Assembly: GCF_004526345.1 (NCBI RefSeq)
Contig: NZ_CP038213.1
Location: 1,860,001-1,924,000, forward strand
Length of the DNA: 64,000 nucleotides
DNA from: Ornithinimicrobium flavum
Lineage (GTDB): Bacteria > Actinomycetota > Actinomycetes > Actinomycetales > Dermatophilaceae
Direction: 5' to 3'
Both the position numbers and the translations under genes were made by a program. Below are positions 12,645 through 33,487 of the stretch, in pieces. Position 1 is the first letter of the stretch. Each line of letters starts with the position of its first letter. Below the pieces are notes generated by a model. The model saw nothing but the letters and a program-made list of their open reading frames with translations. It was not told where the DNA came from and searched no databases.

Positions 12645-12718
12645 GGACGTGTAGCTCAGTTGGTTAGAGCGTTCGCTTCACACGCGAGAGGTCAGGGGTT
12701 CGAGTCCCTTCACGTCCA
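12645..12718 (+). tRNA. tRNA-Val (anticodon CAC)
   Basis: A full cloverleaf folds by eye: acceptor GGACGTG pairs with CACGTCC, the D-arm is GCTCAGTTGGTTAGAGC, the anticodon arm is TTCGC-TTCACAC-GCGAG with anticodon CAC, and the T-arm is AGGGG-TTCGAGT-CCCTT. CCA is not fully encoded (A then CC). A TAAGAT box about 30 bases upstream could be its -10. The last 20 bases are the attachment site of the element that follows. Confidence 0.96.
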
Positions 12719-12721
12719 CCC
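12699..12721. repeat. attL: 23-bp direct repeat in the 3' end of tRNA-Val
   Basis: Bases 12699-12721 start TTCGAGTCCCTTCACG, end TCCACCC and recur exactly at 27748-27770 in the same orientation. The left copy is part of the intact tRNA; the right copy is not followed or preceded by tRNA sequence. This is the signature of integrase-mediated insertion into a tRNA 3' end. Confidence 0.92.
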
Positions 12722-13351: not shown

Positions 13352-14080
13352 GTGCAAATTTCTGGGAGACACATTCCCTCAGACACGGTGGGTCAGACCG
13401 ACCACCGGGTGACGAGCACTGATGACACCGCGCTCTCGAACGTGGCGAGAGTTCGTTGGCCGTTGGCAACGGTAGGGCTTTCCCTGGTGCTGAGTGGGTG
13501 CGCGCCGAGTTCGGGAACGGGCCCCCAAGGGGTCAGTCCAGAGGTCGCTCCCATCACCCATGATGAGGAGCTGGAACGCCTCGCCGTCCAGTTCGGCCTG
13601 GGCCCGGAGGGTCTGCCCCAGGTGGACGTGGTGCGGGAGATCAGTCCCGAGGAGTCCAAAGAGGTGACTGCGGAGTGCATGACCGAGCAGGGCTTTCCGC
13701 CGGACCAGGGCGGAGGTCCGATGAGCTGGACCACCCCGGACGGGCAGCTGCTCGGGTTGAACACTGCTCTGTACGTCTGCCAGGCCAAGTACCCAGTGGC
13801 CCACCGGTATCGCGAGTCCCTGTCGAGGGAGCAGCTGGAGCTGGTGTACGACCATCAGGTGGAGGTCATGGTCCCCTGCATCCGTGGCCTGGGTTACGAC
13901 GTGCCGGAGCCACCGACCCCTGAGCGGTTCCTGGAGCGGAACGGCACGTGGGAGGAGCTCGCGCAGCTGGAGCCGCAGGTGGTGCAGGACGCTACCCGGA
14001 CGGGCCGCTGGGAGTCGTACCAGGACTTCCTGGACGCCTGCCCGCCCATGCCTCCACACGATGTGCTCTACGGAGACTGA
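13352..14080 (+). CDS. Four-cysteine lipoprotein, paralog 1 (intact)
   Basis: The best-preserved member of the family in this element. The signal peptide and lipobox (PLATVGLSLVLSGC) start from an internal GTG at 13442-13444, which is the likelier start; a GTG at 13352 with AAGGGGG before it gives a 30-residue extension. The mature part has four cysteines in conserved settings: TAECMTEQGF, YVCQAKYP, VMVPCIRGLGY and LDACPPMPPHDVLY. Between them are the repeated family features Y-R-E-S-L plus QLELVYDHQ and VPEPPTPERF. Predicted to be anchored on the outer face of the membrane. No known family recognised. Confidence 0.8.
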   Translation: MQISGRHIPSDTVGQTDHRVTSTDDTALSNVARVRWPLATVGLSLVLSGCAPSSGTGPQGVSPEVAPITHDEELERLAVQFGLGPEGLPQVDVVREISPEESKEVTAECMTEQGFPPDQGGGPMSWTTPDGQLLGLNTALYVCQAKYPVAHRYRESLSREQLELVYDHQVEVMVPCIRGLGYDVPEPPTPERFLERNGTWEELAQLEPQVVQDATRTGRWESYQDFLDACPPMPPHDVLYGD

Positions 14081-14131
14081 CGGCTGAGCCTGGGCAGCCG
14101 TGCATCGGCGACGCCACGGAGTTGCGGCACC

Positions 14132-14721
14132 TCAGTCCGTCAGCAAAGCCGGGGGGAAATCGGGGCAACTCGCAATCCAAGCATTCATATGCTCTAACGC
14201 ATCATCTGCAACCGCAGCTTGGAGCTGCACCTGGAACGTTGACGCATCGACCCATTGAGGGCTATTCATAAAAGCTTCCTGAGATGGCATTTGACCCAAC
14301 TCAATACCAAACTGCTCCTGCATACAGGGTATCCACACATCGCGTTGATGGCGATACACGACCAGCCAATCCTCGGGCGTTGCGTCCCTTGCGAAGTCGG
14401 ACTCGAGTGGGTACCGGGCCCTACACATCTCATCGACCCTGAGGAAACCTCATCTTGGGTTTCGGTGAACGGCCCATACTCCAGACTCCCGTCCGGCGCC
14501 ACCCCCGATGACGGGAAGCCCTCGTCCTCCAAGCAGGACGCAATTGCCGCGGGAAGGTCTTCCTGCGACACGGGTCGGACCACCACTCCCACCCCGGCGG
14601 GATTCTCAGTCCCAGAGGCCTCCGACGCCCCCACTCCGCCGTTGGCGGAACATCCGGCCAAGAGCAGAGCCGACAGTATCCACAACTCTCCCCTCATCAC
14701 GCTGGGCGTGGTAGTAGCCAT
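14132..14721 (-). pseudogene. Four-cysteine lipoprotein, paralog 2, frame broken
   Basis: Starts MATTTPSVMRGELWILSALL and has the lipobox LLLAGC. IASCLEDEGFP and GSLEYGPFTETQDEV follow, then the frame changes near 14428 to CRARYPLESDF, WIPCMQEQFGIEL, FMNSPQW and IASCPDFPPALL. Together these give all four conserved cysteines of the family, so only one base shift separates it from an intact copy. It lies downstream of paralog 3 on the same strand. Confidence 0.7.
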
Positions 14722-14838
14722 CTGCTGTCCTCCGTCCGCATAGACACTTCAAATGGTCATTCGCTGACATCGCGCCCCCGCCCTTGCACTACGCGGGTTG
14801 CTTTCCCGTGACGTTGCCTGGTCGCCCGGTGCGAGGTC

Positions 14839-15466
14839 TCAGGGGTAGAGCACCTCATCCGGCGGTCCGGCACAGACGCCGTACAGCGCTTCGTCCATGG
14901 TCGCGATGCGTCCAGCCTTGACGTCTGCCCCGGCCTGCTCGGCAACCCGCTCGGTCGGTAGCCATTGCGGGTTGGCGAGAAACGCCTCACGCGTGGGTAT
15001 CTCGCCGACGTCCCACCCCTGCTGCTCGAAGCACGGCACCGTGTGCTGGACCCACCAGTCGTACAGGACCGAGACGCTCGGTGGTCAACGGCTGGGTGTA
15101 CTTCTCCTCGACGGGGTACTGCTGCAAGCAGACGTAGTAGGCCAGGTTGAATGACTCCTGCTGGCCCGCAGGAATCTCGATGCCCTCGTCCGGTCCTGAC
15201 TCGCTCCAACCGGCGTCCTGCAGGCACCCCGTGTACACCTCCTGCGACTCGCGAGGGGTGATATGCCGCACCGGGGCAACTTCGGGTGGTTCGGTAAGCC
15301 CAAGATCCGAAGCCAGGCGCGCCTTGTCAGCTCCACCATGCTGAGTGCTGGAAGCACTCGTCGAGTCGGCCAGGGGCTCTGCCGTCACCGGTTGGGTGGG
15401 CTGAGAGCAAGCCCCCAGGAACAGGCTCGAGGCCACGACAAGCATGGGCCGCCCCAGTACGGACAT
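14839..15466 (-). pseudogene. Four-cysteine lipoprotein, paralog 3, frame broken
   Basis: From the ATG at 15464-15466: MSVLGRPMLVVASSLFLGAC (signal and lipobox), then LASDLGLTEPPEVAPVRHIT, YTGCLQDAGW, YYVCLQQYPVEEKYTQPLT. The frame shifts near 15070-15085 into the downstream half, with TVPCFEQQGWDVGEIPT, FLANPQW and CAGPPDEVLYP. Four cysteines and the closing DEVLYP match paralogs 1 and 4. The 418 bp between its start and the divergent gene at 15885 show no further gene. Confidence 0.7.
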
Positions 15467-15884
15467 GAACGCCACCCTACTCACCCCGGCGAGACGGCGC
15501 TGACACGCTCGTCGCACCATGGTCCCACCTAGATCGGAGGGTATGGTTGCCGCCCGGGGGAGGGGGCCGTGATTCACGAGAGTAGGGACGGCAACCAGAG
15601 GGCGCCTCATGAACGAGGTCTGGCGGCGTCGGGCGGCGGCGGTGAGGTGCTCGCTCACTGTGGTGGCTCGTGGGACTCGATGGCTTCCATGGCGGTGATT
15701 AAGCGCCCAGGTTCTCTGCGCTTTCGCAACCCACCAACTACCTCTCCCGCGCCCTCCTCGAGGCCGGCGGATTTCGACCCTGATTACACCTGGATTGTGC
15801 AGAGGCCCCTTGACCCGGCGAGCAGTCGTCGGATACGGTCACGAAACGGTCCTTCAATATCTCGGGCTCAATGAGGAGAACACC

Positions 15885-16220
15885 ATGAAGAGGTATCGCC
15901 AGACGAGGAACGCCATCGTCGCGGCCGCCGCTGCCGTGGCCCTCGGCATCTCGATCCCTCTGCCAGCTCTAGCAGACATTAAGACGGGTCCCACCGTGTA
16001 CTGCCCCTCGGCACGACGGTTGGCGCCTACAGCAGCACATCGACTTCGGAAACCGCCCCTTCGTATCAGACCCATAGTATACCAGCACGAGAGGTGAGGT
16101 GCGTACGTACAGCACCTTTACCGCGCCCTCCATCCACTCTTCGTCGTCCCCCTTCCGCAATGCTTCCACGCGGTGGTCATCGGATCGAACTATGTCAACT
16201 GGAGCAACCGCTGCGACTGA
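15885..16220 (+). pseudogene. Small secreted two-cysteine protein A, frame broken
   Basis: An AGGAG box precedes MKRYRQTRNAIVAAAAAVAL, a clear signal peptide ending ALA, then DIKTGPTVYC. The open frame then becomes implausible. Adding one base gives LGTTVGAYSSTSTSETAPSY, and the last readable stretch, AVVIGSNYVNWSNRCD, ends at a TGA at 16218-16220 in yet another frame. The restored layout (signal peptide, Cys soon after cleavage, Cys at the very end) is the same as proteins B and C. It sits just upstream of lipoprotein paralog 4. Confidence 0.5.
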
Positions 16221-16249
16221 TTCTGTGATGTTCCGCCCTTGTCCACGCG

Positions 16250-16922
16250 GTGGCTACGTCCTTGACGGTAGCAGTGGCGCTGGGGGCCTGTTCTGGGGCT
16301 GGGGTTAGCGCGGTCGACAGCCGTCGGAGTCTCCCGTCGCCATCGAGTCGGAATCTGCGGGGGTGTCGGCTACTGCGGCCACTGCGGACCTCCCAGAAGG
16401 GGTTCCGTCCAGCTACCACACGGACATGGCCGCGATCGCCGAGTCGATGGGCCTGGAGATCCGCCAGAGGTCACCCCCGAGCGGGCGGTCACCCCGGCGG
16501 ATGTTGACGCCACCATGGTGGAGTGCCTTGCTGAGTTCGGATTCCAGGCTGAGTTGACCCCCTCGGGTGGTTACAACTTCGGTTACCACGTCTCGCAGGA
16601 GGATGCCGCCGTGCGTGCCGAGTACACCTGTATGGGCCGATATCCCATGGCGGCGCAGTACCGCGAACCGCTGACGGAGCAGCAGTTGAGGGTCTACTAC
16701 GATTGGCACGTGGACGAGATCTTCCCCTGCATGGTGGACCTGGGGCACCCGGTCCCGGAGCCGCCGAGTTGGGAGGTCTACCGCAGCGAACGGGCTGGCG
16801 GCGGAAATCCGTTCTTTTTCGAGAATGCCCTGGATCAGACGACGCTCGTCAAGGATTTACAGGACATCATGACCAACTGCACTTACGTTCCGCCAGACGA
16901 GCTTCTCTATCCCCAAGAGTGA
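16250..16922 (+). pseudogene. Four-cysteine lipoprotein, paralog 4, two frame breaks
   Basis: A GTG at 16250 gives the signal and lipobox VATSLTVAVALGACSG. A change of frame near 16320 leads to ATADLPEGVPSSYHTDMA, and another near 16462 (CGCCAGAGG, one C short) gives RPEVTPERAVTPADVDATMV. The rest is continuous: VECLAEFGF, YTCMGRYPMAAQYREPLTEQ, IFPCMVDLGHPVPEPPS and NCTYVPPDELLYPQE. It has the four family cysteines and the same end as paralogs 1 and 3. Confidence 0.7.
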
Positions 16923-17272
16923 CCCTTTCCGACGTCACCGTTCGCCGGCGAGCAGCGTGTCGCCGCCGAAGAGGACGGCCGCCCGGCTCGGGCTGGACCC
17001 GCCCAGAAGGGCCCGCGCGCGGCGCGGCCCGTGGCCAGCGCGAGGCCACCGCAGCCCTGAGGCCAGTTCCGGCGTGTGGCACCAGGGGGGCAGTTGCCTG
17101 CCTTGCACTCGACACCAACAAGCCAATTCGGGAGCGTAGGGACCATCACCTGGCTCTCGCCGCTGGAGCGCCGAGGTGCTCACGCGGAGGGCGTTGTCAG
17201 TGACGGCGTGGATCATGGCCTCTTGCCAGACCGCACGGGGGAGCGTACAGTTCTCTGTACAGGAGGTCATGC
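16923..17272. other. Gap without a recognised gene
   Basis: About 350 bp between lipoprotein paralog 4 and yefM. Short open frames exist on both strands but none has a credible start, composition or family motif. The last 20 bases before yefM contain GTACAGTTCTCTGTACAGGAGG: GTACAG and CTGTAC form an inverted repeat next to the ribosome site, a plausible autoregulatory operator for the antitoxin. Confidence 0.5.
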
Positions 17273-17530
17273 ATGAAGACTATGAGCTACACCGAGTCGC
17301 GAGCTCGTTACGCAGAAGTGCTGGACGGGGTCACCAACGACCGTGAAGAGGTCGTCATCACGCGCGCGGGCCACGAGCCGGTCGTCATCGTCTCCCTGGC
17401 GGACTACGAGTCGCTGCGCGAGACGGCCTATCTGATGCGCTCACCCACCAACGCGCGTCGGCTGCTGGACGCCATGGAGCGGCTGGAGGCTGGCCGGGGG
17501 CAGTTGCGCGAGCTGGTCGAGACGGACTGA
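17273..17530 (+). CDS. yefM: YefM-type antitoxin (Phd/YefM family)
   Basis: 85 residues: MKTMSYTESRARYAEVLDGV, then VVITRAGHEPVVIVSLADYE and SLRETAYLMRSPTNARRLL, the usual Phd/YefM DNA-binding half and toxin-binding tail. AGGAGG stands just before the start, and a GTACAG...CTGTAC inverted repeat overlaps the region where such antitoxins bind to repress their own operon. yoeB follows after four bases. Confidence 0.9.
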   Translation: MKTMSYTESRARYAEVLDGVTNDREEVVITRAGHEPVVIVSLADYESLRETAYLMRSPTNARRLLDAMERLEAGRGQLRELVETD

Positions 17531-17534
17531 CCGA

Positions 17535-17791
17535 GTGCTGCTGGTCTGGGACGAGAACGCCTGGGAGGACTACCTTTGGTGGCAGGCGCAGGACCGCAAG
17601 GTGCTCAAACGCATCAACCTGCTTCTGAAGGACGTCCAGCGCAACGGCAACGAGGGGATCGGCAAGCCTGAGGCGCTCAAGCACGACTTTGCCGGCTACT
17701 GGTCGCGCCGCATCACCGACGAGCACCGACTCGTGTACAAGATCGCCGGGCCGAGATCCGAGTCGCCGCTTGCCGCTACCACTACGGATAG
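17535..17791 (+). pseudogene. yoeB: YoeB-type mRNA interferase, frame broken before the catalytic end
   Basis: The frame MLLVWDENAWEDYLWWQAQD, INLLLKDVQRNGNEGIGKPE, FAGYWSRRITDEHRLVYKI is a standard YoeB/RelE-fold ribosome-dependent RNase. After KIAG it runs into unrelated sequence, while one frame over the expected end EIRVAACRYHYG is present with a TAG at 17789-17791. The RYHY residues needed for RNA cleavage are thus displaced by one base near 17750 (GCCGGGCCG). Either the toxin is dead or the base is an assembly error. Confidence 0.82.
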
Positions 17792-17975
17792 GCACCGATC
17801 GGGCAAGAGCGGATGCCTCGGCGGGCGGAGCGAAACCTGGAGCGACACACACGACGGGCCAGGCGCACCCCCCACCCCGAGCCGGGGCCAGGGTTGACCC
17901 GCGCGTTCCCATCCCATAGTGTCGCGCTCTGACGCTGCCATCGTGGGCAACCGTCACCTGGACTAGGGAGGCATC

Positions 17976-18301
17976 ATGCAGGGACAGGGCGGAAGATCGT
18001 AGGATCACTTCTGGGGGGATTACTTGTCGTAGGTTTAGCTATTCCAGCATTCGCTGCGCAGAAGGATGGGTACCTCTATCGGATCGACTGCATACAGCCG
18101 TCAGACCCCTGGGTGCAGGCCCGGACCTCGGGGACTACCCAGGTGAAAGGCCCGGGACAGAACTTCTATAGAGAGTTTGTCAACGGCACGCAGTATCAGA
18201 CGCGATATGTGTACGGAACGTACAATGGCGGTTACTGGCATGTGACGACGCCGGCGAATCTCGACTCCAGCAACACGCGTGGCATCTGCCGCAATCCGTG
18301 A
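17976..18301 (+). pseudogene. Small secreted two-cysteine protein B, start region frame broken
   Basis: AGGGAGG precedes an ATG at 17976 that runs into a stop after eight codons. One base over, KIVGSLLGGLLVVGLAIPAF and AAQ form a signal peptide. The mature protein is DGYLYRIDC, PSDPWVQARTSGTTQVKGPG, FYREFVNGTQYQTRYVYG, YWHVTTPANLDSSNTRGICR, then NP and stop: two cysteines, one near each end of a Tyr/Thr/Gly-rich chain of about 75 residues. Its stop is six bases before the start of lipoprotein paralog 5, so the pair is co-transcribed. Confidence 0.6.
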
Positions 18302-18307
18302 TCGCCA

Positions 18308-18962
18308 GTGAAACTGAGAACGGCGATATTGGGTGCTGCCGCTCTCCCACTGCTTCTGGGAGCTTGTCTTGCTGGTCCAGAAGGTTCGGGGGAAGCTGGC
18401 GCGAACGCCCCTGTCCGCTCCACTGAGGTGAGCAGTGCAGACACTGCTTCCGCACCGGCGCCCGCTACGTCACCCGCGCACGGAGCCGCGCCGAGCGCTC
18501 CGGCCGCCCGGCCACGTAATCTGGAGGATCTACAGCGGGCCTGGCTTCAGACCAAGGGCGAATGCCTGCGGGAGGCAGGATTTAGGGCGCAGATGGCTGG
18601 GGACGGGCTCGACATTTGGGACCCGCCTCCGGAGCAGCGGGCTGCTTTCGAGAGGCCATCCAGGCGTGCGAAGCCGAGGCGGGCCAGTCCCGGGTGGCGA
18701 TCCGATGACGCGGGAGGAGCTCGGCACCCTTTATGATCTTCAGCTCCAGGCGAGGGAATGCTTGTTGGCGGGGGGATACCCGGTGACCGATCCAAGCAGT
18801 CGTGAGATCTTTATTAGTTTGTACCTCGCGATGTACGAAGGTGGCACCGATATCCAACCTCCGTGGTTCGCCCACGAGGCGACCGATGCCTCGGGAGACC
18901 TCTCCGCGCGGGAAGCCTGCCCTGAACCGACCATGGCCGACGTGTACAGGGCGAACGCCTGA
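18308..18962 (+). pseudogene. Four-cysteine lipoprotein, paralog 5, two frame breaks
   Basis: A GTG start gives KLRTAILGAAALPLLLGAC (signal and lipobox), an Ala/Pro/Thr linker, then TKGECLREAGF and IWDPPPEQRAAF. The frame then changes near 18650 to AIQACEAEAGQSRVAIR, and again near 18702 to MTREELGTLYDLQLQARECL, GGYPVTDPSS, and REACPEPTMADVY at the end. Four cysteines match the family, though the second block is diverged (QAC instead of YVC..YP). 215 bp of apparently empty sequence follow up to the IS. Confidence 0.62.
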
Positions 18963-19177
18963 CCTCCGCTGCCCACCAGGATCAGTTGGACTGGGCGTCT
19001 CGAGGCTACCCGTCCTGGCGTCGCCCGCGAATAACCCGGTGCAAGAATTGCGTTCGGAAAGCCCGGTCCGCGGGTCGCGGGCTTACGCAGACCAGGACTG
19101 GAGACTCTGCGTATCCGAGTTGGTCGTATCCCCCTGATGAGGGCCCCTCCCGGACGGGCAGATCTTGGAGCCAGTGG

Positions 19178-20597
19178 AGTCCACCAGAGTGGTGTACGAC
19201 GACCACGGTGGTGAGTGTGTCCTGCTGATGTAGGCGCGGTCACCGCGTGATCCTTCGAGTGAACCTTCCACAGCACTCTCGAACGGAGCATCACGATGAC
19301 CGCTCTCCCAGTATCGATCCTGAGGTCTTCCTGCACGAGCAGCTCGCGCAGGCGAGCCCGGACCTGATGCGGCACCTGCTGCAGTCCTTCATCAACACGC
19401 TGCTCTCGGGGCAGGCCGACGCGGTCTGCGGCGCCGACTACGGCACCCGCAGCACCGAGCGGACCAACCGGCGTAACGGGTACCGGCACCGCGACCTGGA
19501 CACGCGTGTGGGCACCCTGGACGTGGCGATCCCCAAGCTGCGCGAGGGATCCTTCTTCCCCGAGTGGCTGCTCGAGCGTCGTAAGCGGGCCGAGGCCGCG
19601 CTGACCACGGTGGTCGCGACCTGCTACCTGCTCGGGGTCTCCACCCGGCGGATGGACAAGCTGGTCACCGCGCTGGGCATCACCGGCCTGTCCAAGTCGC
19701 AGGTGTCGGTGATGGCGGCCGAGCTCGACGAGCACGTGGAGTCCTTCCGCACCCGGCCCCTGGACGCCGGCCCGTACACGTTCGTGGCCGTCGACGCGCT
19801 CGTGCTCAAGGTGCGTGAGGGCGGGCGCGTGGTCAAGGTGTCCGCGCTGGTGGCCACCGGCGTCAACGCCGAGGGCTACCGGGAGATCCTGGGCATCCAG
19901 GTCGCCACCGGGGAGACCACGGCCTCCTGGCTGGGCTTCTTGCGCGACCTCGTCGCCCGCGGCCTCACCGCGGCCGGGCCGGTCGGACTGGTCACCTCCG
20001 ACGCCCACGCCGGCCTGGTCGAGGCCATCGGCGCGACCCTGCCCGGGACCGCGTGGCAGCGGTGCCGCACCCACTACGCAGCCAACCTCATGGCCGCCAC
20101 GCCCAAGTCGTCCTGGCCGTGGGTCAAGGCGCTGCTGCACAGCGTGTACGACCAGCCCGACGCGCCAGCTGTGCAGGCCCAGTTCGACCGGGTGTTGGAC
20201 ACCCTGGCCGGCAAGCTGCCCGCGGTCGCTGAGCATCTCGAGGATGCCCGTGCCGACATTCTGGCGTTCACCGCCTTCCCCAAGGAGGTGTGGCGCCAGA
20301 TCTGGTCGAACAACCCCCAGGAGCGCCTCAACCGCGAGATCCGGCGGCGGACCGACGTCGTGGGCATCTTCCCGCACCGTGAGGCAATCATCCGCCTCGT
20401 CGGCGCCGTCCTGGCCGAGCAGCACGACGCCTGGGCCGAGCAGCGCCGTTACATCGGCATCGATGTCCTTACCCGCTGCCGACACTCCCTGGCACCCACC
20501 ACCACCGGACAGGAGGAAACCGCTGCTACCATCCCCGCACTGACGGCCTGATCAACCCCACCCAGGGATCACGGTCGTACACCACTCCACCGGACTT
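19178..20597 (+). mobile_element. IS256-family insertion sequence in the cargo zone
   Basis: One transposase gene between imperfect inverted repeats: 19178-19200 (AGTCC then GAGTGGTGTACGAC) and, inverted, 20574-20597 (GTCGTACACCACTC then CCGGACTT). The element is about 1.42 kb. I could not see a convincing target duplication, so either the ends are a few bases off or one flank has changed. It separates lipoprotein paralog 5 from paralog 6. Confidence 0.75.
19247..20551 (+). CDS. IS256-family (Mutator-type) DDE transposase
   Basis: About 434 residues. It has RNGYRHRDLDTRVGTLDVAI, FFPEWLLERRKRAEAAL, LGVSTRRMDKLV, the DDE core (FVAVDALVLKVREGG, LVTSDAHAGLVEAIGATLPG, QRCRTHYAANLMA) and the C-terminal SNNPQERLNREIRRRTDVVG. 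The annotated GTG start adds unusual residues. A natural start, ATG at 19294 (MTALPV), lies in another frame just before SIDPEVFLHEQ, so the 5' end may carry a one-base shift. Confidence 0.88.
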   Translation: MILRVNLPQHSRTEHHDDRSPSIDPEVFLHEQLAQASPDLMRHLLQSFINTLLSGQADAVCGADYGTRSTERTNRRNGYRHRDLDTRVGTLDVAIPKLREGSFFPEWLLERRKRAEAALTTVVATCYLLGVSTRRMDKLVTALGITGLSKSQVSVMAAELDEHVESFRTRPLDAGPYTFVAVDALVLKVREGGRVVKVSALVATGVNAEGYREILGIQVATGETTASWLGFLRDLVARGLTAAGPVGLVTSDAHAGLVEAIGATLPGTAWQRCRTHYAANLMAATPKSSWPWVKALLHSVYDQPDAPAVQAQFDRVLDTLAGKLPAVAEHLEDARADILAFTAFPKEVWRQIWSNNPQERLNREIRRRTDVVGIFPHREAIIRLVGAVLAEQHDAWAEQRRYIGIDVLTRCRHSLAPTTTGQEETAATIPALTA

Positions 20598-20952
20598 GAC
20601 CAATCTCCCGGAAGATCACGTGCATAACAAGCAGTAGCGGATGATTCATGTGTCCTTCAGCTGGAGCGTGGCGTGCCCCTAGGATCAGGTCATGTTGAGG
20701 AGTAGGTCAGTAGTTGGTTGATCAGTGTGACCAACCCAGCACGCGAACAACAGCAACCGATTAGCGGCTGGTCTGCTGAGGTTGCGTGACGGCGCCCAGA
20801 GGGCAACCCCACCGGCAGTGAGCCGATGTTGGGGCTACCGGGGCCTGGTCAACTGGGCCGCGAGGGTACCCGCCGCGAGGCCAAGGCTGGCACCCCGTGG
20901 CATGGAGCTGGACCCTCGATACTCGACAAAAGCCTTGAACGGGGGAGTACGT
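20598..20952. other. Gap after the IS without a recognised gene
   Basis: About 355 bp of mixed composition, somewhat less GC-rich than the chromosome. Short open frames exist but none has a believable start and product. It is the 3' side of lipoprotein paralog 6 and probably contains only its downstream region. Confidence 0.5.
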
Positions 20953-21651
20953 CTACTCATCACCGCTGAAGAGAAGGTCGTCCCCGGGGGACGCGGGACA
21001 CCGCTGGAAGACGTCGTTGGTCGGCGTCCCGTCCACATCGAAGTACGGCATCCAGTGCCGATCGCTCGTGCTGGCGTCATGAAGCCACACCGCCCGAGAA
21101 GGTGGTTCGATGAGATACCCCTCCGCCTGTAGGCAGGGAGTGAGATCGTCTACGTAGTAGTCATACAGTCGTCCAAGTTGATCGTCGTCCAGTGGCCGAA
21201 GGTATTGCGCGAGCGGCGGGTAGGAAGCCCAGCACACATACCACGACTCGTTCAGCGCGGGCATCTGATGATCAGGGACAGAAGCCATGACCCCGCCGTC
21301 CGGGTCAACCTCGACGGGCCAGCCTCGGTCCTCCATGCACGTCGCTACCAAGTCTGACTGCTCCGCTGGGGCGACCCTGCGGATCACCGCGACGACAGGC
21401 GGCTCGCTCAGCCCGTGGAGCTCGGCTAGGCCGCTGCGGTACTGCTCAAGAAATCCTGCATCGGACTCAGGTGCACCCCTAGTAGCTGGATGCTGGGTGT
21501 GAGCCCCACGGTCCTGGTCACGAACTGGTGACCGGTCGGCCTCCCAGCGGGCATCCGCCCGTTCGGTGCTCAGGCCTGAGCAGCCAGACAGGAGCAACGT
21601 GAAGGCGCAGAGAGCGGCAGCGCCAGTGGAAAGTTTAGAGGCAGCCAGCAT
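20953..21651 (-). CDS. Four-cysteine lipoprotein, paralog 6 (intact)
   Basis: From the ATG at 21649-21651: MLAASKLSTGAAALCAFTLL then LSGCSGLS (lipobox). The mature part has ELHGLSEPPVVAVIRRVAP, VATCMEDRGWPVEVDPDGGV, WYVCWASYPPLAQYLRPLD, QLGRLYDYYVDDLTPCLQAE, GYLIEPPS and RCPASPGDDLLFSGDE. All four conserved cysteines are in one frame. Its start lies inside the end of secreted protein C (overlap about 17 bases), so translation of the two is coupled. Confidence 0.8.
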   Translation of the reverse strand: MLAASKLSTGAAALCAFTLLLSGCSGLSTERADARWEADRSPVRDQDRGAHTQHPATRGAPESDAGFLEQYRSGLAELHGLSEPPVVAVIRRVAPAEQSDLVATCMEDRGWPVEVDPDGGVMASVPDHQMPALNESWYVCWASYPPLAQYLRPLDDDQLGRLYDYYVDDLTPCLQAEGYLIEPPSRAVWLHDASTSDRHWMPYFDVDGTPTNDVFQRCPASPGDDLLFSGDE

Positions 21652-21955
21652 AGACAGAGTAGACGTCAATGCTCGCGTATGCCTGCCCTCCAGAGATCCA
21701 CACACGATCGACATCTTGGAATGCGTTGTTGCGGTATGTCGAACTGTACGGAAATGTCTTTGACGTCGTAATCATGTGACCCCAGTGTTCTTTCTTGGCC
21801 GACCCCTTGTCGTATCCAGCGGTATAGACATTGCTGTTCGGGCACGATCTTTGTCCAAAGCCCCATGTATCGGCGTGCACCGTGACCGCACCTCCGACGG
21901 CGAGTGCTCCAACCAGCGTCAGTGTCAGCACGCTCCGCGCACAAGACCGCCTCAT
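21635..21955 (-). CDS. Small secreted two-cysteine protein C (intact)
   Basis: 106 residues from the ATG at 21953-21955, with GAGGAG eight bases upstream. The signal peptide MRRSCARSVLTLTLVGALAV...VHA is followed by DTWGFGQRSCPNSNVYTAGY, KKEHWGHMITTSKTFPYSS, VDRVWISGGQAYASIDVYS and a final VYAGCL. One Cys is near the mature N-terminus and one is the last but one residue, as in proteins A and B. It heads a two-gene unit with lipoprotein paralog 6. No known toxin or enzyme motif is seen. Confidence 0.75.
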   Translation of the reverse strand: MRRSCARSVLTLTLVGALAVGGAVTVHADTWGFGQRSCPNSNVYTAGYDKGSAKKEHWGHMITTSKTFPYSSTYRNNAFQDVDRVWISGGQAYASIDVYSVYAGCL

Positions 21956-22246: not shown

Positions 22247-25200
22247 TCACAGCGAAGGACCAGACGGGGGCCTGGTAGCGCCGTCATGGTGTCGTTGACG
22301 CTCGGCTCGTCGCTGACTGGCTTGGAGCCCGTCGCGCGCGGCGTTTGCGGTGGGCGTGGAGGCGACCGGTGACGGCACCGCCAGCCGGTGGATGAGCCGA
22401 GTCTGGTGCCTGGCTGCCTGGGGTTCCTTGATGGGCGGACCTGTCGGGCTCGGCTCGGTGGGTGGGATGTCGTGGGCGGCGCGCCAGACGGCGAGGTCGC
22501 CGATGAGCTGGCCGTCGACGTCCGGGGGCAGGGTTCGCTGCCAGGGCACCCGGTCGGACGCACCCGCCCGCTGGGCTTCGTCGGCGACGCGCTGCTTGAG
22601 GTGGTCGATCCGCTGGGTGAGCCGGTCGAGGTAGGCGCTCGTGCCTGGCTGGTGTCGTAGGGCGGGTGGGATGTCGGGCAGCCACGGCAGTGGCGCATCC
22701 CGGTGCGCGGGTGGGGTGGCGCCTGCGATGCGCCAGGTGAGGGCGGCGGCGGGGTCGTCGGCCTTGGTGAGGGACTGCGTGCCGCGGTACCAGGTGGCCT
22801 GCTCGATCACGGGGCGGGGCGGGGTCCCGTCGACCCAGTGCAGCGCGAGCTGGCCCCGCAGGTGCGGGTAGGCCGGTTGCCCCGTGAGACCGGGCATCCA
22901 CTTCTCTAGCGCGTCGTCCAACGCCGCCATCCGTTCGTGTCCGAGGTGGTGCTGGGCCAAGACGGGTAGGGCGTCCTGATAGGCCAGCACCGCCTGGCGC
23001 AGCAGGAGGGTGGCGTCACCGTGCTCGACGGTCTTGGCCGACTGTGTGCGGCCGTCGCGGGCGAGGATGTCGGTGAGCACCTGTCGCGGCTCCATGTTCG
23101 TGACCGGGACCTCGGGGCCGACACTGTCCAGCGAGGGGGTGGGCGTGGCCAGGTAGAGGTGGTTGGCCTGCCGGCCGCGCGAAAGGGCGACGTACAGGCC
23201 CTGACGGCTCTCGGTTCCGGTGAGGACGGTGTGGGTGGTGTCGACGGTGGCGCCCTGGGCGCCGTGGATGGTGCTGGCGTACCCCAGCTGGACGTGCTCG
23301 GACACGTACCCGGCCGGCAGGGTGACGTGAGGCCGCGTGCACTGACTGCCGCCGCGGTAACGTTCGACCGTCATGGTGCCGTCGGGATGGAAGGCGAGGA
23401 GACGCCATCGGTCACCGTTCTTGACCCAGGACCCGTTGCCGGTCCGCAGCGTGCGGTCGTTGCGGCGGGTGATCACGGTGTCGCCGGCACTGGCGCGGGT
23501 GCCGTCAGCCAGGGCCACCTCACGTCCGGGCGGCTGTCCCGTGTTGTCGAGGCGGTCCTGGCGGGCGCGCTGGTTGAGGTCACGGACGGTCTCCCGGGTG
23601 GCTGCCAGCAGCAGGCTGGACAACCCAGCGCGCTGGTCGGCCTTCCAGGCGGCGAACGCCGCCTCCATCACGTCCCCGGTGTCTCCGGTGTGGACGCGGT
23701 CGTAGTCGAGGTAGTGGTCCAGGGCGGCGGGGTCACCGTCGCGGACGCCGAGGGTGGCCGCGCCCTCGACGGGATCGGTGAACCGGTGCAGCTCGGTCAG
23801 CGTGGCGGTGGTGCCGTGCGCGTGGCCCTGCTCGGCCAGGTCGCGGAAGATCCCGCCGGCGGCCACGGCCGACAGCTGCTGGTCGTCCCCGACGAGGCGG
23901 ACGCTGCCGCCGGCGTCGACGACGTGCCGGACCACGGCCGCCAGGTCGCGGGTGCCCGCCATGCCCGCCTCGTCGATCAGCACCAAGGTTCGGGGGCCGA
24001 CTGCTCCGCCGACGGTGGTCGGTGGCCGAGCGTCGGTTGACGCCCCTGCCCGGGAGTTGGTGGTCTGGTGGAGGTGCTTGGCGAGGGTGTCGGCGGGGAT
24101 GCCGGTGGCGCGGCCGAGCTCGTCGGCTGCGACCGCGGTGGGCGCCAGCCCGAGGACGGTCCCGCCGGAGGCCTCCCAGGCCCGGGCGAGCACGCGCAGC
24201 GCGGCGGTCTTGCCGGCGCCGGCCGGGGCCAGGGCGACCTGAACCCGGCACCCGCTCGTGGCCAGGGTGCGGACCATCGCCGTCTGCGAACGGTCCAGGC
24301 TCGGACCGTCCGCAGACTGGGCGGCCAGGACGGTCTCGACCACGTTCGGGTCGGCCTGGCGGCCGTCGCGGCGCAGCCCCAGGGTGAGTAGCTCGTCCTC
24401 GGCGGCCAGGATCGCGCGGGAGGTGTAGGCCTGGCTGCCGTGCACGATGTGGGCGGACTGTCCGTCCGGGCGGCGCAGAACCTCCGGCTCGCCCAGCTTC
24501 GGCGGCACACCGACCGGTACTGAGAAGCCCTGCAGCACCCACTTCTCGACCTCATGGGCGTGCTCCTCGAGCCTGTCCAGGGGCACCTGGGCGGTGCGGA
24601 GCTGGCGCAGCGTCTCTGCGCGCACGTGCCACACCTGCCACGTCGCCCGCGACCCCTCCAGCACCGACAGGACTCGGGCGGCGAGCACTTGGGGGCGCAC
24701 GCCCCCACCCCGCCCCGGGCAGAGGCGCCCCTGCTGCGTCTCCACCCGCTGACCTGCGGCAATGGGCTCGTCTCCACCACGCTCCCGGGTGCGTCTCCAC
24801 CCCGCCCCCACCGCGCTCTCGACGACCTCCTCCGGGCTTCGTCCTGCGGTGGCAAGTGCGGCGTTCGCCTGCTGCCGCCAGGTGACGCGCTGCTCGGCCT
24901 CGGAGCGGGGTTCGTGCTTGCCGGGCCGGGTCTCCAGGTTCGCCTGCTGCGCCAGGGCCAATGACTCGACGGTCGTGGGGGTCCGGCCGTGGTCGGCCCG
25001 GAAGGTGGCGGCGAGCTCGCGCTGCCGGACCTGGATCGCCTGCCGCCTCGACGACCAGGCACTGAGCAGGGCCGGGTCGATGCCGTCGATCTCCCGCACC
25101 GTCCGCTTGCCCTCCGGTGAGGGGCGGTCGACGAAGGAGACCCCGAGCCGGTCGACGAGGCCGGCCTCCAGGTGCGTGTTGTAATGCTCGGAGGCCATCA

Positions 25201-26065
25201 CCTTCGCCTTGAACAGCATCCGCCCGTCCAGGGTCAACCACCGCCCGCCCTCCTCCGGCAGGGACTGGACCTTGTTTGAGACGACCACGTGGGTGTGCAG
25301 GTCCGGATCCCCGGTGCGGGAGTCGCGATGGTCGAAAGCCGCCGCCACCAGCCCGGTGACAGGAACCTGGCGGATGCCGCCCTTACCGACCCGGGTGAAC
25401 GCCACCTCGCGCTCAAGCATCGCCAGCGTCGCGCGGACCGCATCCTGGTGCGCGGCCTCCACCTGTGCCGCGACGTCGGCCGGGGCGAGGGCCCACAGCG
25501 CCGAGACCGACTTCACCGGCGAGAACGTCAGGTCGAACCCCGCCACCGGCACCTGCGCCGGCCGCGACGCCTTGACGATAAACTTCGTGAGCTCGGCCTC
25601 GTCGACGGGGGCACGGCCGTGCCGCTGCTCGAACGCCTCCCGGGCGACCTGGGTGCGGATCCGCGCCCGCTCCTGCGCCGGGATGGGGGCGTTCCACGCC
25701 AGCCCGCGGGAGGTGTTGTGCTCGCTGAACGCGCGGGCCGTCACCTGCCGCAGAGACGTGGCGCCGAAGGTCGGGAACGCTCGCCCCAACGCGCCCCAGC
25801 CACGCTCGGCCGCCTCGCGCTCGCCGGAGCGTGGGTGGCGGCCCTCCCCGAACAACAGCTTCATCTGCTCCTCGGTGACCACGTCCCCGACGTTCAAGTC
25901 GAGGCTGCCCAGGCCGGTGCCCAGCCACCGCCCGGGCGCCTCGCCCTTCTCCTCGTAGTAGGACGCCAGCCCGGCCTGCCGCTTCTCCGTGGAATCGTGC
26001 ACGGCGACCTGACGTGTCAGGTAGGTGTACCCGGACCCGGCCGAGAGCTTGTGCATCGTCATCAT
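22247..26065 (-). CDS. MobF relaxase with TraI/TrwC-type helicase domains
   Basis: About 1,272 residues from ATG codons at 26062-26065 (a further start exists at 26092). The N-terminal relaxase has MHKLSAGSGYTYLTRQVAVH (candidate catalytic Tyr) and the metal-binding HUH motif DPDLHTHVVVSN near residue 255. The helicase has Walker A APAGAGKTAAL near residue 615, Walker B LVLIDEAGM, and YASTIHGAQGATVDTTH plus LYVALSRGR at the end. It nicks the element's oriT and unwinds the strand for transfer. Without its own coupling protein, the element probably relies on a helper. Confidence 0.92.
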   Translation of the reverse strand: MMTMHKLSAGSGYTYLTRQVAVHDSTEKRQAGLASYYEEKGEAPGRWLGTGLGSLDLNVGDVVTEEQMKLLFGEGRHPRSGEREAAERGWGALGRAFPTFGATSLRQVTARAFSEHNTSRGLAWNAPIPAQERARIRTQVAREAFEQRHGRAPVDEAELTKFIVKASRPAQVPVAGFDLTFSPVKSVSALWALAPADVAAQVEAAHQDAVRATLAMLEREVAFTRVGKGGIRQVPVTGLVAAAFDHRDSRTGDPDLHTHVVVSNKVQSLPEEGGRWLTLDGRMLFKAKVMASEHYNTHLEAGLVDRLGVSFVDRPSPEGKRTVREIDGIDPALLSAWSSRRQAIQVRQRELAATFRADHGRTPTTVESLALAQQANLETRPGKHEPRSEAEQRVTWRQQANAALATAGRSPEEVVESAVGAGWRRTRERGGDEPIAAGQRVETQQGRLCPGRGGGVRPQVLAARVLSVLEGSRATWQVWHVRAETLRQLRTAQVPLDRLEEHAHEVEKWVLQGFSVPVGVPPKLGEPEVLRRPDGQSAHIVHGSQAYTSRAILAAEDELLTLGLRRDGRQADPNVVETVLAAQSADGPSLDRSQTAMVRTLATSGCRVQVALAPAGAGKTAALRVLARAWEASGGTVLGLAPTAVAADELGRATGIPADTLAKHLHQTTNSRAGASTDARPPTTVGGAVGPRTLVLIDEAGMAGTRDLAAVVRHVVDAGGSVRLVGDDQQLSAVAAGGIFRDLAEQGHAHGTTATLTELHRFTDPVEGAATLGVRDGDPAALDHYLDYDRVHTGDTGDVMEAAFAAWKADQRAGLSSLLLAATRETVRDLNQRARQDRLDNTGQPPGREVALADGTRASAGDTVITRRNDRTLRTGNGSWVKNGDRWRLLAFHPDGTMTVERYRGGSQCTRPHVTLPAGYVSEHVQLGYASTIHGAQGATVDTTHTVLTGTESRQGLYVALSRGRQANHLYLATPTPSLDSVGPEVPVTNMEPRQVLTDILARDGRTQSAKTVEHGDATLLLRQAVLAYQDALPVLAQHHLGHERMAALDDALEKWMPGLTGQPAYPHLRGQLALHWVDGTPPRPVIEQATWYRGTQSLTKADDPAAALTWRIAGATPPAHRDAPLPWLPDIPPALRHQPGTSAYLDRLTQRIDHLKQRVADEAQRAGASDRVPWQRTLPPDVDGQLIGDLAVWRAAHDIPPTEPSPTGPPIKEPQAARHQTRLIHRLAVPSPVASTPTANAARDGLQASQRRAERQRHHDGATRPPSGPSL

Positions 26066-26353
26066 TTCCACCCCTAAAGCGGACGAGCGCACGCCTGGGT
26101 CTCACCCGCGAGCCGAGTGCAGTAGGTGTGTTCTTCGTCTTCGGCTCGACGCTCAGGTCGGCTGCGGGCTCATGTCGTGACGTCGCGGCTGGGGCGGCGC
26201 GAGGGGAAGGCGCGCGTCTGGCGGTCGCGGAGGGAGGCGATCAGGTCGGCTGGGCTGACGGTGATGGTTGACGCGCAGTCCATGTCGGTGCGCGGGGGTC
26301 CGTGTGATGAGAGTCGGAGCAGATCGATCAGCTGCTGGTTCCCGTTCGGACGG
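26066..26353. other. Gap between integrase and relaxase genes
   Basis: 288 bp on the upstream side of the relaxase gene. A minus-strand frame MDCASTITVSPADLIASLRD of 37 codons is present but too short to call. An oriT or a small excisionase would be expected in such a place; neither is convincing here. Confidence 0.4.
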
Positions 26354-27577
26354 CTATTCGGCCTTGACGTGACGCAGTGGCGTCACGGTGCCGGCGGCTC
26401 GTAGCCGGTCGATCTGAGCCTGCAGCCTATCGGCGATGGCGCGGTCGCGTTCGGCGGTCGCCGCCTGGTAGCGCAGCGCCATCGTCGGCGTGGTGTGCCC
26501 GAGTCGGTGCTGCATCTCCCGCACGGTTGCCCCCGACTGCGCCCCCAATGTGGCGGCAGTCCTACGTAGGTCGTGCCAGTGAAGTTCCGGCTTGCCGACG
26601 ACCTCCCGGGCGGCATAGAAGCCGTAGGCACGCTTCCTGTAGTCCTTCCCGCCGCGGTGCTCGACGCGTTCCTCGCGCCCGTACAGCGCCGAGGGGGCGA
26701 GCAACTCACCGTCCCGGCCCGGGAAGACGAGCGCTTCACGGCCCCGGACGGGATGCGCCGCCAGGTGATCCCGCAGCGCGTCCACCACCAGTGCCGGCAT
26801 GGCCACCTCACGCTTGCCGGCAGGGGTCTTCGGGGCGTTCGTGGTCTTGGCCCCTCCGGCACGGACGGCGGTCCTCGCGACGGACACCACGCCTGACTCC
26901 AGGTCGACGTCTCGTCGGCGCAGGGCAACGGCCTCGCCGAAGCGCAGCCCGCACAGTCCGCACAGCAGCGTCAGGGCACGATGCTGGGGTGGCATGGCGT
27001 CAGCCAGGGCCAGCAGCTCCGCCAGGGTGAGCACCTCGGGCTCTCGTGCGACCGTGGTGCGCCCTCCGGCCTTGATGCGGCAGGGGTTGCGCATGATCAG
27101 CTCGTCCTGCTCCGCCTGCGCCATCACGGCGCCTAGGACCTGGTAAGCGTGGGCGCGCGCGGTCGGGGTCCGCTCGCCGTAGGACTGGAACCACGAACGG
27201 ATCAGGCTCGCCGAGATCTCCGTCAGGGGGGTGCCACCGAAGGCGGGCACGAGATGGCGCTCTATGGCCGTCCGGTAGCTGGCGCGTGTCGTGGCCCTCA
27301 GGTCGTGGCGGCCGGCCAGCCATCCCCGGGCGTAGGGGGCGAAGACGCTGCGTCGACGCTCCAGCTCGGCCAGCTCGGCGGCGCGCAGTCTTGACGCAGG
27401 CGGCGTCCAGGTGCCCGCGCTGATGAGTCGTCGTTCGTCGGTGAGCCAGGCCTCGGCGTCCATCCGGGTGTCGAAGGTGCTCGGGGCGTTGTGGAGCACG
27501 GTGTCCGGCCCGGTGTAACGAGCCCGGTACCGCTTGCTCGGCAGTCGGGTGATCTGACCGAACGACCGCTTGCCCAT
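26354..27577 (-). CDS. int: Tyrosine site-specific integrase of the tRNA-Val element
   Basis: 407 residues. The N-terminal arm-binding part has GQITRLPSKRYRARYTGPD, followed by a core-binding SAM-like domain (YARGWLAGRHDLRATTRASY) and the catalytic domain: Arg in CGLCGLRFGEA, HWHDLRRTAATL (HxxR), HRLGHTTPTMALRYQ (His and the nucleophile Tyr). It lies 170 bp from attR and reads away from it, a usual order for elements in tRNA genes. No excisionase is evident next to it. Confidence 0.95.
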   Translation of the reverse strand: MGKRSFGQITRLPSKRYRARYTGPDTVLHNAPSTFDTRMDAEAWLTDERRLISAGTWTPPASRLRAAELAELERRRSVFAPYARGWLAGRHDLRATTRASYRTAIERHLVPAFGGTPLTEISASLIRSWFQSYGERTPTARAHAYQVLGAVMAQAEQDELIMRNPCRIKAGGRTTVAREPEVLTLAELLALADAMPPQHRALTLLCGLCGLRFGEAVALRRRDVDLESGVVSVARTAVRAGGAKTTNAPKTPAGKREVAMPALVVDALRDHLAAHPVRGREALVFPGRDGELLAPSALYGREERVEHRGGKDYRKRAYGFYAAREVVGKPELHWHDLRRTAATLGAQSGATVREMQHRLGHTTPTMALRYQAATAERDRAIADRLQAQIDRLRAAGTVTPLRHVKAE

Positions 27578-27696: not shown

Positions 27697-29421
27697 TCAG
27701 GTGGGGACGTGAAAGACACGCAGAGCGCGACACGCCGCGGATTCTTTTTCGAGTCCCTTCACGTCCACCCTACGCACAAGGCTCGAACCCTTGCCAACGG
27801 AAACGTTGGTCGAGGTTCGGGCCTTGTTCACGTCTGCGGCCCAGGTCAGAGCGTTGGCGTTGACCTGCGGATCGAGGAGCATCTCGAAGGGCCGGTTGTG
27901 CTCGACGCGCAGCTCGTCGTCCTCGTCGATGAAGACCTTGGTGAAGAACGCCTGGTTGCACAGGCGCCGGTTGGTGTCGTCGCACCTGCGGTAGATGTCG
28001 GCGCAGTCGGCGAGCAAGCCGAGCGCGTCGTCGAGGTGGGAGCGGGCGTCTGCGTAGTCACCGAAATGGGCGTCGATGCGACGGGTCACCTGGTCTAGCT
28101 CGGCGACGATGCGGTCCTGCTCGCGCTTGAGCACGGAGAGCGGGATCGCGTCTGCGTAGTGCGCCTGCATGAGGCGGTCCTGCTCGCCTTCGAGCCGGTC
28201 GCGGTTGGTGGTGAGGCGTTCCAGTTCCTCGGTTTCGGCGGCCATGAGCCGGTCGAACTCGTGGTGGAGCATCCCCGCGAGCGCGTCCTGCTGGGCGGGC
28301 GTGATCTGGACGCGGGTGTAGTAATCCTCGACGAGCTTTTCGACGTCCTCTATGAGCATCGCCTGGCGCGTGCAGTCGGTGCGCTTGGAGTGCCGACCGG
28401 AGCACACGAAGTAGCAGTACACGTTCCCGTGACGGTTCTTCGCGTTGGACACGATGAGCCGGGAGCCGCACTGGCCGCAGTGGATGGTGCCTTTGAGGTA
28501 GTGGCCGTGGACTTGGGTTGCCTCGACGGCGCACTGGTGCGCGGTGAGCACGGACTGGACCTGATACCAGACCTCGGCAGGCACGAGCGCTGGGTGGTTG
28601 CCCTTGTAGCGGGTGCCTCGATAGATGACATCGCCCTTGTAGTACGGGTTTGTCAGGAGCCGATGGATGGTGGACACAGCCAGCGGTTTCGCCGGCCGCT
28701 TCGGCGTGGGCAGGCTGCGCAGCCCGCGCGAGGTGAGCTCGTCGTGCAGCTGGCTGACACTCCAGTTGCCCGACGCGTACGCCTTGAACGCCCACTCGAT
28801 CATCGGTGCCCGCTCCGGATCGAGTTCGATGGTGCGGACTTCGCGCCCGAGCTCATCGCGCTTGCGGACGTTCAGGTACCCGATGGGCGCGCGCCCGTTC
28901 GTGCCGCCGCCAATGGCCTTCTGGGTCATACCCTTGGCGACCTCGGTGGCGAGGTTGCGGGAGTAGAACTCGGCGATGGTGGACATGATGCCGTGCAGCA
29001 GCATCCCCGAGGGTGTCTCGTCGATGTTCTCCGACGCGGACACGAGCATGACCCCGCACTGTTGGAGCGCGAGGTGGATGCTCACGTCGTCGGCGCGGTT
29101 CCTGGCGAGCCGGTCGACCTTGTGAACGATGCAGTACGCGACCTTGTTGGCCTTGACGTACTGGATCATCCGCATCAGCTCGGGCCGGTCGGACGACTTG
29201 GCCGAGGCTCCCGCGTCGACGAACTCCTCGACGATGCCGGCGCCGAGCTGCTCGGCCTTGCGCCGGGTCGCTTCGCGTTGGGCCGGGATCGAGAAGCCCT
29301 CGTCCGTGCCGCCCTTCTCTGCCTGCTCGCGGGTCGAGACCCGCAGGTAGGACACGGCGGCGGCCATTGTCTTGGGCGGGTCGATGAGGCTGGCAGCCGG
29401 ATCGTCGGCAATGGTGGTCAT
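27697..29421 (-). CDS. Large serine recombinase, C-terminal end replaced
   Basis: 574 residues. The resolvase domain has the catalytic Ser in SYLRVSTREQ, VHKVDRLARN and FYSRNLATEVAKGM; then come a recombinase domain (NPYYKGDVIYRGTRYKG), a zinc ribbon (HCGQCGSRL...CYFVCSGRH) and a long coiled coil (TEELERLTTNRDRLEGEQDR). The last 17 codons come from the tRNA-Val element: beyond attR the frame reads KESAACRALRVFHVPT. Fused to the tRNA instead, it would end VDVKGLEPLTSRV. It belongs to an older element lying to the right. Confidence 0.9.
   Translation of the reverse strand: MTTIADDPAASLIDPPKTMAAAVSYLRVSTREQAEKGGTDEGFSIPAQREATRRKAEQLGAGIVEEFVDAGASAKSSDRPELMRMIQYVKANKVAYCIVHKVDRLARNRADDVSIHLALQQCGVMLVSASENIDETPSGMLLHGIMSTIAEFYSRNLATEVAKGMTQKAIGGGTNGRAPIGYLNVRKRDELGREVRTIELDPERAPMIEWAFKAYASGNWSVSQLHDELTSRGLRSLPTPKRPAKPLAVSTIHRLLTNPYYKGDVIYRGTRYKGNHPALVPAEVWYQVQSVLTAHQCAVEATQVHGHYLKGTIHCGQCGSRLIVSNAKNRHGNVYCYFVCSGRHSKRTDCTRQAMLIEDVEKLVEDYYTRVQITPAQQDALAGMLHHEFDRLMAAETEELERLTTNRDRLEGEQDRLMQAHYADAIPLSVLKREQDRIVAELDQVTRRIDAHFGDYADARSHLDDALGLLADCADIYRRCDDTNRRLCNQAFFTKVFIDEDDELRVEHNRPFEMLLDPQVNANALTWAADVNKARTSTNVSVGKGSSLVRRVDVKGLEKESAACRALRVFHVPT
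27748..27770. repeat. attR: second copy of the 23-bp tRNA-Val 3' end
   Basis: Exact match to 12699-12721. It is embedded in the last codons of the serine recombinase reading frame (VDVKGLE on the minus strand), so the first element cut that gene. Sequence identity stops at both sides of the repeat. Confidence 0.92.
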
Positions 29422-29600
29422 CGGGGGCTCCCTCTCACGCGGTTCGACCCTCGCGCTCCCACTGTTGGTGGGAGGGGTGTTGATCGTGAGAGCAGCCGGT
29501 GATGACTGTGGGGCGAGACCCGATGGTCTCGGTGCGTGTTGCCCGCCGGGCGGCGAGGTTTAGGCCACAACACCCCATCGCGAGGCTTGCACGGTTCATT

Positions 29601-29828
29601 CTACCGGGCGGCTTCAGAGGCGGCCAGGCCATCCGGTGCCGCCCGGTAGGTGTCGGGCACCCGCACGGCCGCGCGGACCGCGCGGCTCTCGCCGGTCTCC
29701 TGCAACGTCAGCCGGATGAGAACCTCGGCGAGCTTGTGCAGGTCGGCGCGTTCGCGGTGGACGGCCCGGACGGAGAACGACCGCTCCTCGTACGGGCGAC
29801 GGTCGGTCTTCTTGGCATAGCGGCTCAT
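29601..29828 (-). CDS. Small hypothetical protein of the second element
   Basis: 75 residues: MSRYAKKTDRRPYEERSFSV, RERADLHKLAEVLIRLTLQE, SRAVRAAVRVPDTYRA. Basic start and amphipathic helix, no recognised domain. It starts five bases after the DUF4913 gene stop, so it is co-translated with it. 29829 onward upstream belongs to that gene. The 180 bp between here and the recombinase start hold an inverted repeat CTCCCAC-GTGGGAG at 29456 but no gene. Confidence 0.6.
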   Translation of the reverse strand: MSRYAKKTDRRPYEERSFSVRAVHRERADLHKLAEVLIRLTLQETGESRAVRAAVRVPDTYRAAPDGLAASEAAR

Positions 29829-29832
29829 CGGT

Positions 29833-30390: not shown

Positions 30391-30409
30391 GGTGCTGTGG
30401 CTCCCGAAC

Positions 30410-30850: not shown

Positions 30851-30930
30851 GATGGCCTCCTCCTGACTCGGGCGACCAACTGCGTGTGGGTCGCTCTGTC
30901 AGGCAGGTGCACCCCGATTCCCAAGCGCCG

Positions 30931-33460: not shown

Positions 33461-33487
33461 AACTCCGAGAACAGGCCCGATCGTCGG

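Follow-up and report, generated by a model that had tools for sequence, protein, structure and literature searches.

Co-diverging pairs of small secreted proteins and four-cysteine lipoproteins beside an ABC/FtsX trio: a candidate antagonism system of Ornithinimicrobium flavum and related Actinomycetota

A stretch of 64,000 nucleotides of the Ornithinimicrobium flavum genome (NZ_CP038213.1, positions 1,860,001 to 1,924,000; the window) contains an array of genes for four-cysteine lipoproteins (LPs), some of them preceded by genes for small secreted two-cysteine proteins (SPs); the window copies are termed LP1-LP6 and S4-S6. In relatives the full locus reads SP, LP, an adaptor with a peptidoglycan (PG)-binding domain, an ATP-binding cassette (ABC) ATPase and an FtsX/MacB permease. 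The reading that we slightly favor takes the SP as a Sec-exported bacteriocin-like protein, the LP as its immunity protein and the last three genes (the trio) as a self-protection pump. More broadly, the chances seem evenly balanced that these loci constitute an undescribed class of antagonism (or kin-recognition) system, in which a dedicated PG-binding adaptor/ABC/FtsX machine is preceded by interchangeable cassettes of a hypervariable SP and a co-diverging, mostly helical LP. Such a system would be present in several families of the order, with a single occurrence beyond the taxonomic class, and its mobile arrays would keep immunity cassettes in reserve. The families, the gene order, the co-occurrence, the co-divergence and the excess of unpaired LPs are established at the level of sequence.

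The LP family is defined by its cysteines. In an alignment of 34 members C26, C92, C123, C156 and C210 are invariant, i.e., the lipobox Cys and four more, the latter in the settings that an earlier note on this DNA had described. A model of LP6 made with AlphaFold2 is mostly helical (predicted local distance difference test score 78 with a 10-row alignment, the first 34 residues scoring below 50). In the SPs a signal peptide is followed by a mature part in which Gly and Cys are invariant close to the N-terminus, a Trp is almost invariant and the C-terminal end has a further invariant Cys; the mature form of S6 comprises, by eye, 78 residues with Cys 10 and Cys 77. Sequence conservation is otherwise low, and type-1 SPs share only 14-23% identity with S6. 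The two SP types appear to be homologous, as judged from profile comparison (hhalign scores 17.3 across 84 columns, and 60 column shuffles reach at most 10.2; hhalign's own probability is only 4.9%). Among 47 pairs, the partners of type-1 SPs are long LPs and those of type-2 SPs are shorter and score lower; each type has one exception. No library scanned names either family: Pfam scans of LP and SP yielded nothing better than E 0.00066, and three LPs and four SPs had no match to the PADLOC anti-phage models at E≤0.01. "Undescribed" is used here in the sense of absent from the libraries scanned, with no literature search behind the term. In one genome (G013) an open reading frame (ORF) next to an LP (locus L017, 2298-3419, minus strand) carries the four-Cys domain (E 3e-8 with the LP hidden Markov model, HMM) and appears by eye to be a membrane protein whose N-terminus looks cytoplasmic; the domain may exist in ectodomain form as well.

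SPs and LPs are neighbors in many genomes; the earlier note had named homologs that never adjoin as grounds for giving up its pair reading, and the reading withstands this check. The genus sample comprised 31 genomes, and 89 fetched stretches, including those of two genomes outside the genus (G036 and G037), were re-scored with SP and LP HMMs. With LP6 as query, LPs were found in 25 of 58 genomes (the own genome included), with up to 13 matches per genome. The fetched stretches hold 67 SP matches (one in G037), not counting two weak partial ones that were not fetched (G027:1888284 and G009:1772031); 56 look intact and 11 are partial or weak. An LP lies within 330 bp of 53 of the intact-looking SPs (one of them in G037) and adjoins six of the 11 others. 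Of the 53, 47 stand directly upstream of their LP on the same strand, three are divergent and the remaining three are assigned a different order by a nearest-LP rule; 22 came in addition to the candidates that had initially been chosen for their place upstream of an LP, and the unpaired SPs number three. LPs are often alone: an SP lies within 330 bp of 58 of the 127 LP domain hits, and 69 have none that near (pieces of broken genes counted apart). Under one fixed rule, an SP-like ORF precedes 25 of 82 coding-like LP ORFs vs. 17 of 533 other coding-like ORFs of at least 150 amino acids in the same stretches (Fisher p 2e-13). Three order-wide searches, taken as covering the same 396 genomes because their handles match, scored at most 12 SP, 7 LP and 4 adaptor candidates per genome, so that their counts are lower bounds; SP matches occur in at least 21 genomes, and of the 23 outside the own genome 19 share their locus with an LP. 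Beyond the order, occurrences are sparse in a phylum sample of 246 genomes, with LPs at E≤1e-8 in three, one of them outside the class (G533), where an SP-like ORF, an adaptor and an ATPase lie alongside. At L152 (G012:C1:947117-955032) the gene order is unusual: a type-2 SP is free of LPs for about 2 kb, and a second SP sits between an LP and the ABC trio. Among the order-wide SP matches, that of L218 may be due to chance; L213, L224 (G414) and L221 (G149) hold SP-family proteins without a detected LP, with transposase-like ORFs, by eye, near L213 and L221.

The partners also diverge together, in keeping with the earlier description of a diversifying pair system. Mantel tests were run on 47 of the 53 pairs, six being dropped for a mature SP shorter than 60 residues, a duplicate SP or the reverse (LP>SP) order. 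SP and LP distances correlate with r 0.785 for type 1 (n=28), 0.815 for type 2 (n=19) and 0.722 for all pairs. When partners were shuffled within genomes, which preserves species relatedness, mean r fell to 0.147, 0.505 and 0.081, respectively (p≤0.0002 for type 1, 0.005 for type 2 and 0.0002 for all). The shuffles of type 2 reach a maximum of 0.815, equal to the observed value, because no more than 12 of the 19 type-2 pairs are open to shuffling.

The pairs are real, but the system is larger and includes an adaptor, an ABC ATPase and an FtsX permease that had been missed. The adaptor has a PG_binding_1 domain (E 7e-14) and a signal-like N-terminus. The ATPase (PF00005, E 5e-27) matches the LolD, FtsE, L_ocin_972_ABC and MacB models, all below cut-off, and the permease is of the FtsX/MacB type (PF02687, E 1.4e-11), with PDB matches to 5xu1, a Streptococcus pneumoniae structure, and to MacB chains. 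Of 18 clusters with trio genes, 11 have the order SP-LP-adaptor (G003, G004, G006, G008, G009, G010, G011, G021, G024, G027, and G029), which continues through to the permease in seven (G006, G009, G010, G011, G021, G024, and G027). Elsewhere the SP directly precedes the adaptor (G012) or the arrangement is divergent (G037), and second clusters of G027 and G006 have an LP or an SP-LP pair behind the permease. The window array lacks trio genes; the trio of O. flavum itself (G000), at 495.2-498.1 kb, contains the only adaptor match of the genome (495 kb) and has no LP within 1.5 kb. Within the genus the adaptor occurs in 23 of 31 genomes, and its presence follows that of the LP (LP6 as query): 22 genomes have both, one has the adaptor alone, one the LP alone and seven neither (Fisher p 2e-5). 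The adaptor-only genome, G012, contains weaker LPs by HMM; G016 has the LP match without adaptor. Across the order, the adaptor (E≤1e-25) is present in at least 32 genomes and the LP (E≤1e-6) in at least 41, both in 31, the adaptor alone in one (G137) and the LP alone in 10 (Fisher p 3e-36). Of the 39 adaptor loci outside the own genome, 33 lie within 1.5 kb of an LP, and at 27 the LP stands directly upstream on the same strand. The adaptors of L250, L251, L252, L255, and L264 are followed by an ATPase and a permease, where the locus reaches.

The toxin-immunity reading follows from the SP being rarely alone, the LP being often alone and the two co-diverging. The SP would leave the cell by Sec, probably closed by a single disulfide from the Cys near its start to the Cys at its end, and would act outside the cell on related bacteria in a bacteriocin-like manner, possibly killing them. 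The LP, anchored to the outer face of the producer membrane, is proposed to bind its cognate SP, since the two diverge together, and would thus confer immunity. Adaptor, ATPase and permease may act together as a pump, or as a machine that clears the membrane, and provide additional protection comparable to that of LanFEG beside the lipoprotein LanI. A five-gene antibacterial system would then have the SP-LP pairs as its variable cassettes, and unpaired LPs and arrays of the window type would be kept or decaying immunity genes against the SPs of other strains.

Lantibiotic immunity combines a LanI lipoprotein with a LanFEG ABC transporter (NisI/NisFEG, SpaI/SpaFEG). The idea of two-part immunity stems from the same arrangement here, a lipoprotein and an ABC transporter adjoining a secreted-peptide gene, seen in the operon census; the co-variation of LP with SP is a further likeness. 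However, the SP is a protein of about 75 residues with two Cys and no family match, and the permease is of the FtsX/MacB type and comes with a PG-binding adaptor. LanI families are absent from the Pfam matches of the 34 LPs (E≤1) and from the NCBIfam matches of the window LPs. By analogy the system would work like LanI/LanFEG without being a member, because the LP matches no LanI family and the permease is of the FtsX type. Bacillus subtilis YknWXYZ acts against the SDP toxin. YknXYZ and MacAB-like trios of Gram-positive bacteria resemble the present one in having a separate ABC ATPase and an FtsX permease (the permease here matching 5xu1 and MacB chains) beside an adaptor; they differ in that an SP-LP pair is attached here and the adaptor, possibly of the HlyD/MacA type, is detected only through PG_binding_1. 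Polymorphic toxin-immunity arrays with orphan immunity genes represent a general kind, which shares the co-diverging pairs, the unpaired putative immunity genes and the array layout, whereas the predicted effector here, the SP, is a free small Sec-secreted protein without carrier domain.

Several observations weigh against a bacteriocin with its immunity protein. Library scans assign the SP to no known toxin family or fold; its best Pfam match, DUF6299 (PF19816), remains below cut-off at E 0.00066 and concerns one of 20 type-1 SPs (19.9 bits vs. a cut-off of 26.8). Lactococcin 972 (PF09683; ABC component TIGR03608), which is similar in size and also has a Sec-type signal peptide, was tried as a relative of the SP and rejected: against a 7-sequence PF09683 profile hhalign gave type 1 a score of 4.4 and type 2 one of 2.9, neither exceeding what column shuffling yields (up to 9.0 and 8.3, respectively), and the Pfam scans at E≤1 list no PF09683 match. 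Pointing the other way, one PF09683 homolog (L195) matched the type-1 SP HMM at 1.7e-5, signal peptide included. The export ATPase model TIGR03608 gives the trio ATPase 131-138 bits, below its cut-off of 254.85, and seven fetched PF09683 loci with 1.5 kb flanks contain no LP and no adaptor/ATPase/permease trio of this kind. Structure comparison of the LP found no clear PDB relative. The mean net charge is +1.5 for the SP and, over its matched part, -19 for the LP; this carries little weight, as the acidity of the LP may simply reflect acidic proteins in general, no control having been run. Partners are also missing in places: the three unpaired SPs of the genus look intact, four order-wide SPs have no LP in the locus (L213, L218, L221, and L224), and no SP is detected in the clusters of G002 and G036, which do contain LP and trio genes. 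Of 29 genus adaptor rows, eight lack an LP or SP within 1.5 kb; in three of them (L243, L248, and L271) one lies further off, and in the others (L250, L251, L252, L255, and L264) the fetched 1.5 kb flanks contain none. Finally, a ligand and its receptor would be expected to co-diverge as well.

This last point makes signaling or kin recognition the main rival, since SP-LP co-divergence fits it equally well, though we consider it rather unlikely. The SP would be an exported ligand, the LP its surface receptor and the FtsX-type trio the relay of the signal. BceAB and FtsEX transmit extracellular binding, and FtsX-type permeases serve as mechanotransmitters, a property that suits such a relay, as do the three intact-looking SPs transcribed divergently from their LP. 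However, LPs without SP are common and SPs without LP rare, a bias that immunity explains better, even if receptor-only genomes are conceivable. A role in envelope maintenance, with SP and LP as substrates or regulators of a MacB/FtsEX-like wall-remodeling machine with a PG-binding adaptor, would account for the PG_binding_1 domain and for an ATPase that scores best to the LolD and FtsE models. Its patchy spread (the adaptor in 32 of 396 genomes, a lower bound), the diversity of the SPs (14-23% identity to S6) and up to 13 LP matches per genome are not what a housekeeping wall function predicts, and we regard this role as improbable. The position of the window array on a relaxase-bearing tRNA element could suggest entry or surface exclusion genes of integrative elements, with the LP blocking incoming DNA transfer and the SP as accessory. 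This seems very improbable, as the pairs are instead joined to the ABC trio in eleven clusters, and single-sequence tblastn with LP6, another LP and one type-2 SP found no match among 72,556 plasmids.

In the window, the LP HMM recognizes all six paralogs that had been noticed by inspection (13352-21651), which share 26-43% pairwise identity where BLASTP aligns them; only LP1 and LP6 have open frames. LP1 (13352..14080, plus strand; E 1e-57) has its lipobox Cys at 13499 and is fused in frame to an SP remnant of 12 residues (about 13379..13414, plus strand), recognized by eye from comparison with an SP-LP pair that the genome has at 479.7-480.7 kb. LP2 (14132..14721, minus strand; pieces 14269-14721 and 14135-14449) and LP3 (14839..15658, minus strand; pieces 14990-15658 and 14842-15084) are broken; both pieces of LP2 match the LP HMM, and LP3 matches it as well. 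The broken S4 (about 15885..16230, plus strand; type-1 SP HMM matches 15885-16025 and 16078-16200) precedes the equally broken LP4 (16250..16922, plus strand; LP HMM E 2e-40 for the 3' piece). S5, of type 2 (17981..18301, mature part 18056-18298, plus strand; type-2 SP HMM E 1e-45), has an open signal and mature frame, but the upstream stop is reached without an in-frame ATG, GTG or TTG; it is followed by the broken type-2 LP5 (18308..18962, plus strand). The one intact SP, S6 of type 1 (21635..21955, minus strand; type-1 SP HMM E 2e-20), overlaps with its end the start of the intact LP6 (20953..21651, minus strand; LP HMM E 2e-58), so that LP1, LP6 and S6 are the only intact-looking genes of the array. 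The three pairs that had been counted, with LP4, LP5 and LP6, are thus recovered by the SP HMMs, albeit with S4 broken and S5 start-less, and the remnant fused to LP1, overlooked before, brings the LPs with SP traces upstream to four. The nearest fetched relatives of the window LPs differ: an own-genome LP at 480158 for LP1 (87.6% identity), an open-frame LP of G029 for LP2 (61-67%), open-frame LPs of G001 and G002 for LP3 (54-83%), G019 for LP4 (49%) and an own-genome LP at 472757 for the pieces of LP5 (97-100%), with LP6 reaching 37-43% at best. Judging from these identities, the array appears to be an assemblage of cassettes that differ in origin. A YefM antitoxin/YoeB toxin pair (17273-17897; PF02604 E 8e-22, PF06769 E 2.5e-30) lies between LP4 and S5, and a Mutator-family transposase (19247-20551) between LP5 and LP6.

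The frame breaks reported for most LP copies are present in LP2, LP3, LP4 and LP5, and the window array looks largely decayed. A second array of the genome, at 472.5 kb, includes a 98.4% copy of the S5/LP5 segment, in which the 106 aligned residues of S5 are identical to the copy at 473390. The two segments differ by 14 substitutions and eight single-base deletions; all eight deletions are in the window copy, three of them within runs of 4 bases. Given that the genome (3.71 Mb, single contig) is 99.73% complete, the evidence leans towards real decay rather than sequencing error.

The array was rightly placed on an integrative element. This element of 15 kb is bounded by an exact 23-bp direct repeat, with attL at 12699..12721 (plus strand; the 3' end of tRNA-Val, 12645-12720, plus one base) and attR at 27748..27770 (plus strand), and encodes a TrwC-type relaxase/helicase (22247..26092, minus strand; PF08751 E 1.3e-87) and a tyrosine integrase (26354..27577, minus strand; PF00589 E 2.1e-15). 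A general link of the pairs to mobile elements did not hold up: the plasmid searches above and a single-sequence tblastn of phages with LP6 found no match, and complete operons of relatives sit on long contigs, stretches whose mobility was not tested. At and beyond attR (27697-37571) the window contains a serine recombinase, a piece of a type IV secretion system coupling protein and, by eye, a further transposase flanked by two helicase-like ORFs; this region is perhaps a second, tandem element.

If the proposed function is correct, the loci would define a recurrent five-gene operon of Actinomycetota and two protein families missing from the scanned libraries. They would also provide an antibacterial candidate of a new kind, small, exported by Sec and matched with its own immunity, and the scattered orphan lipoproteins of these genomes would be explained.

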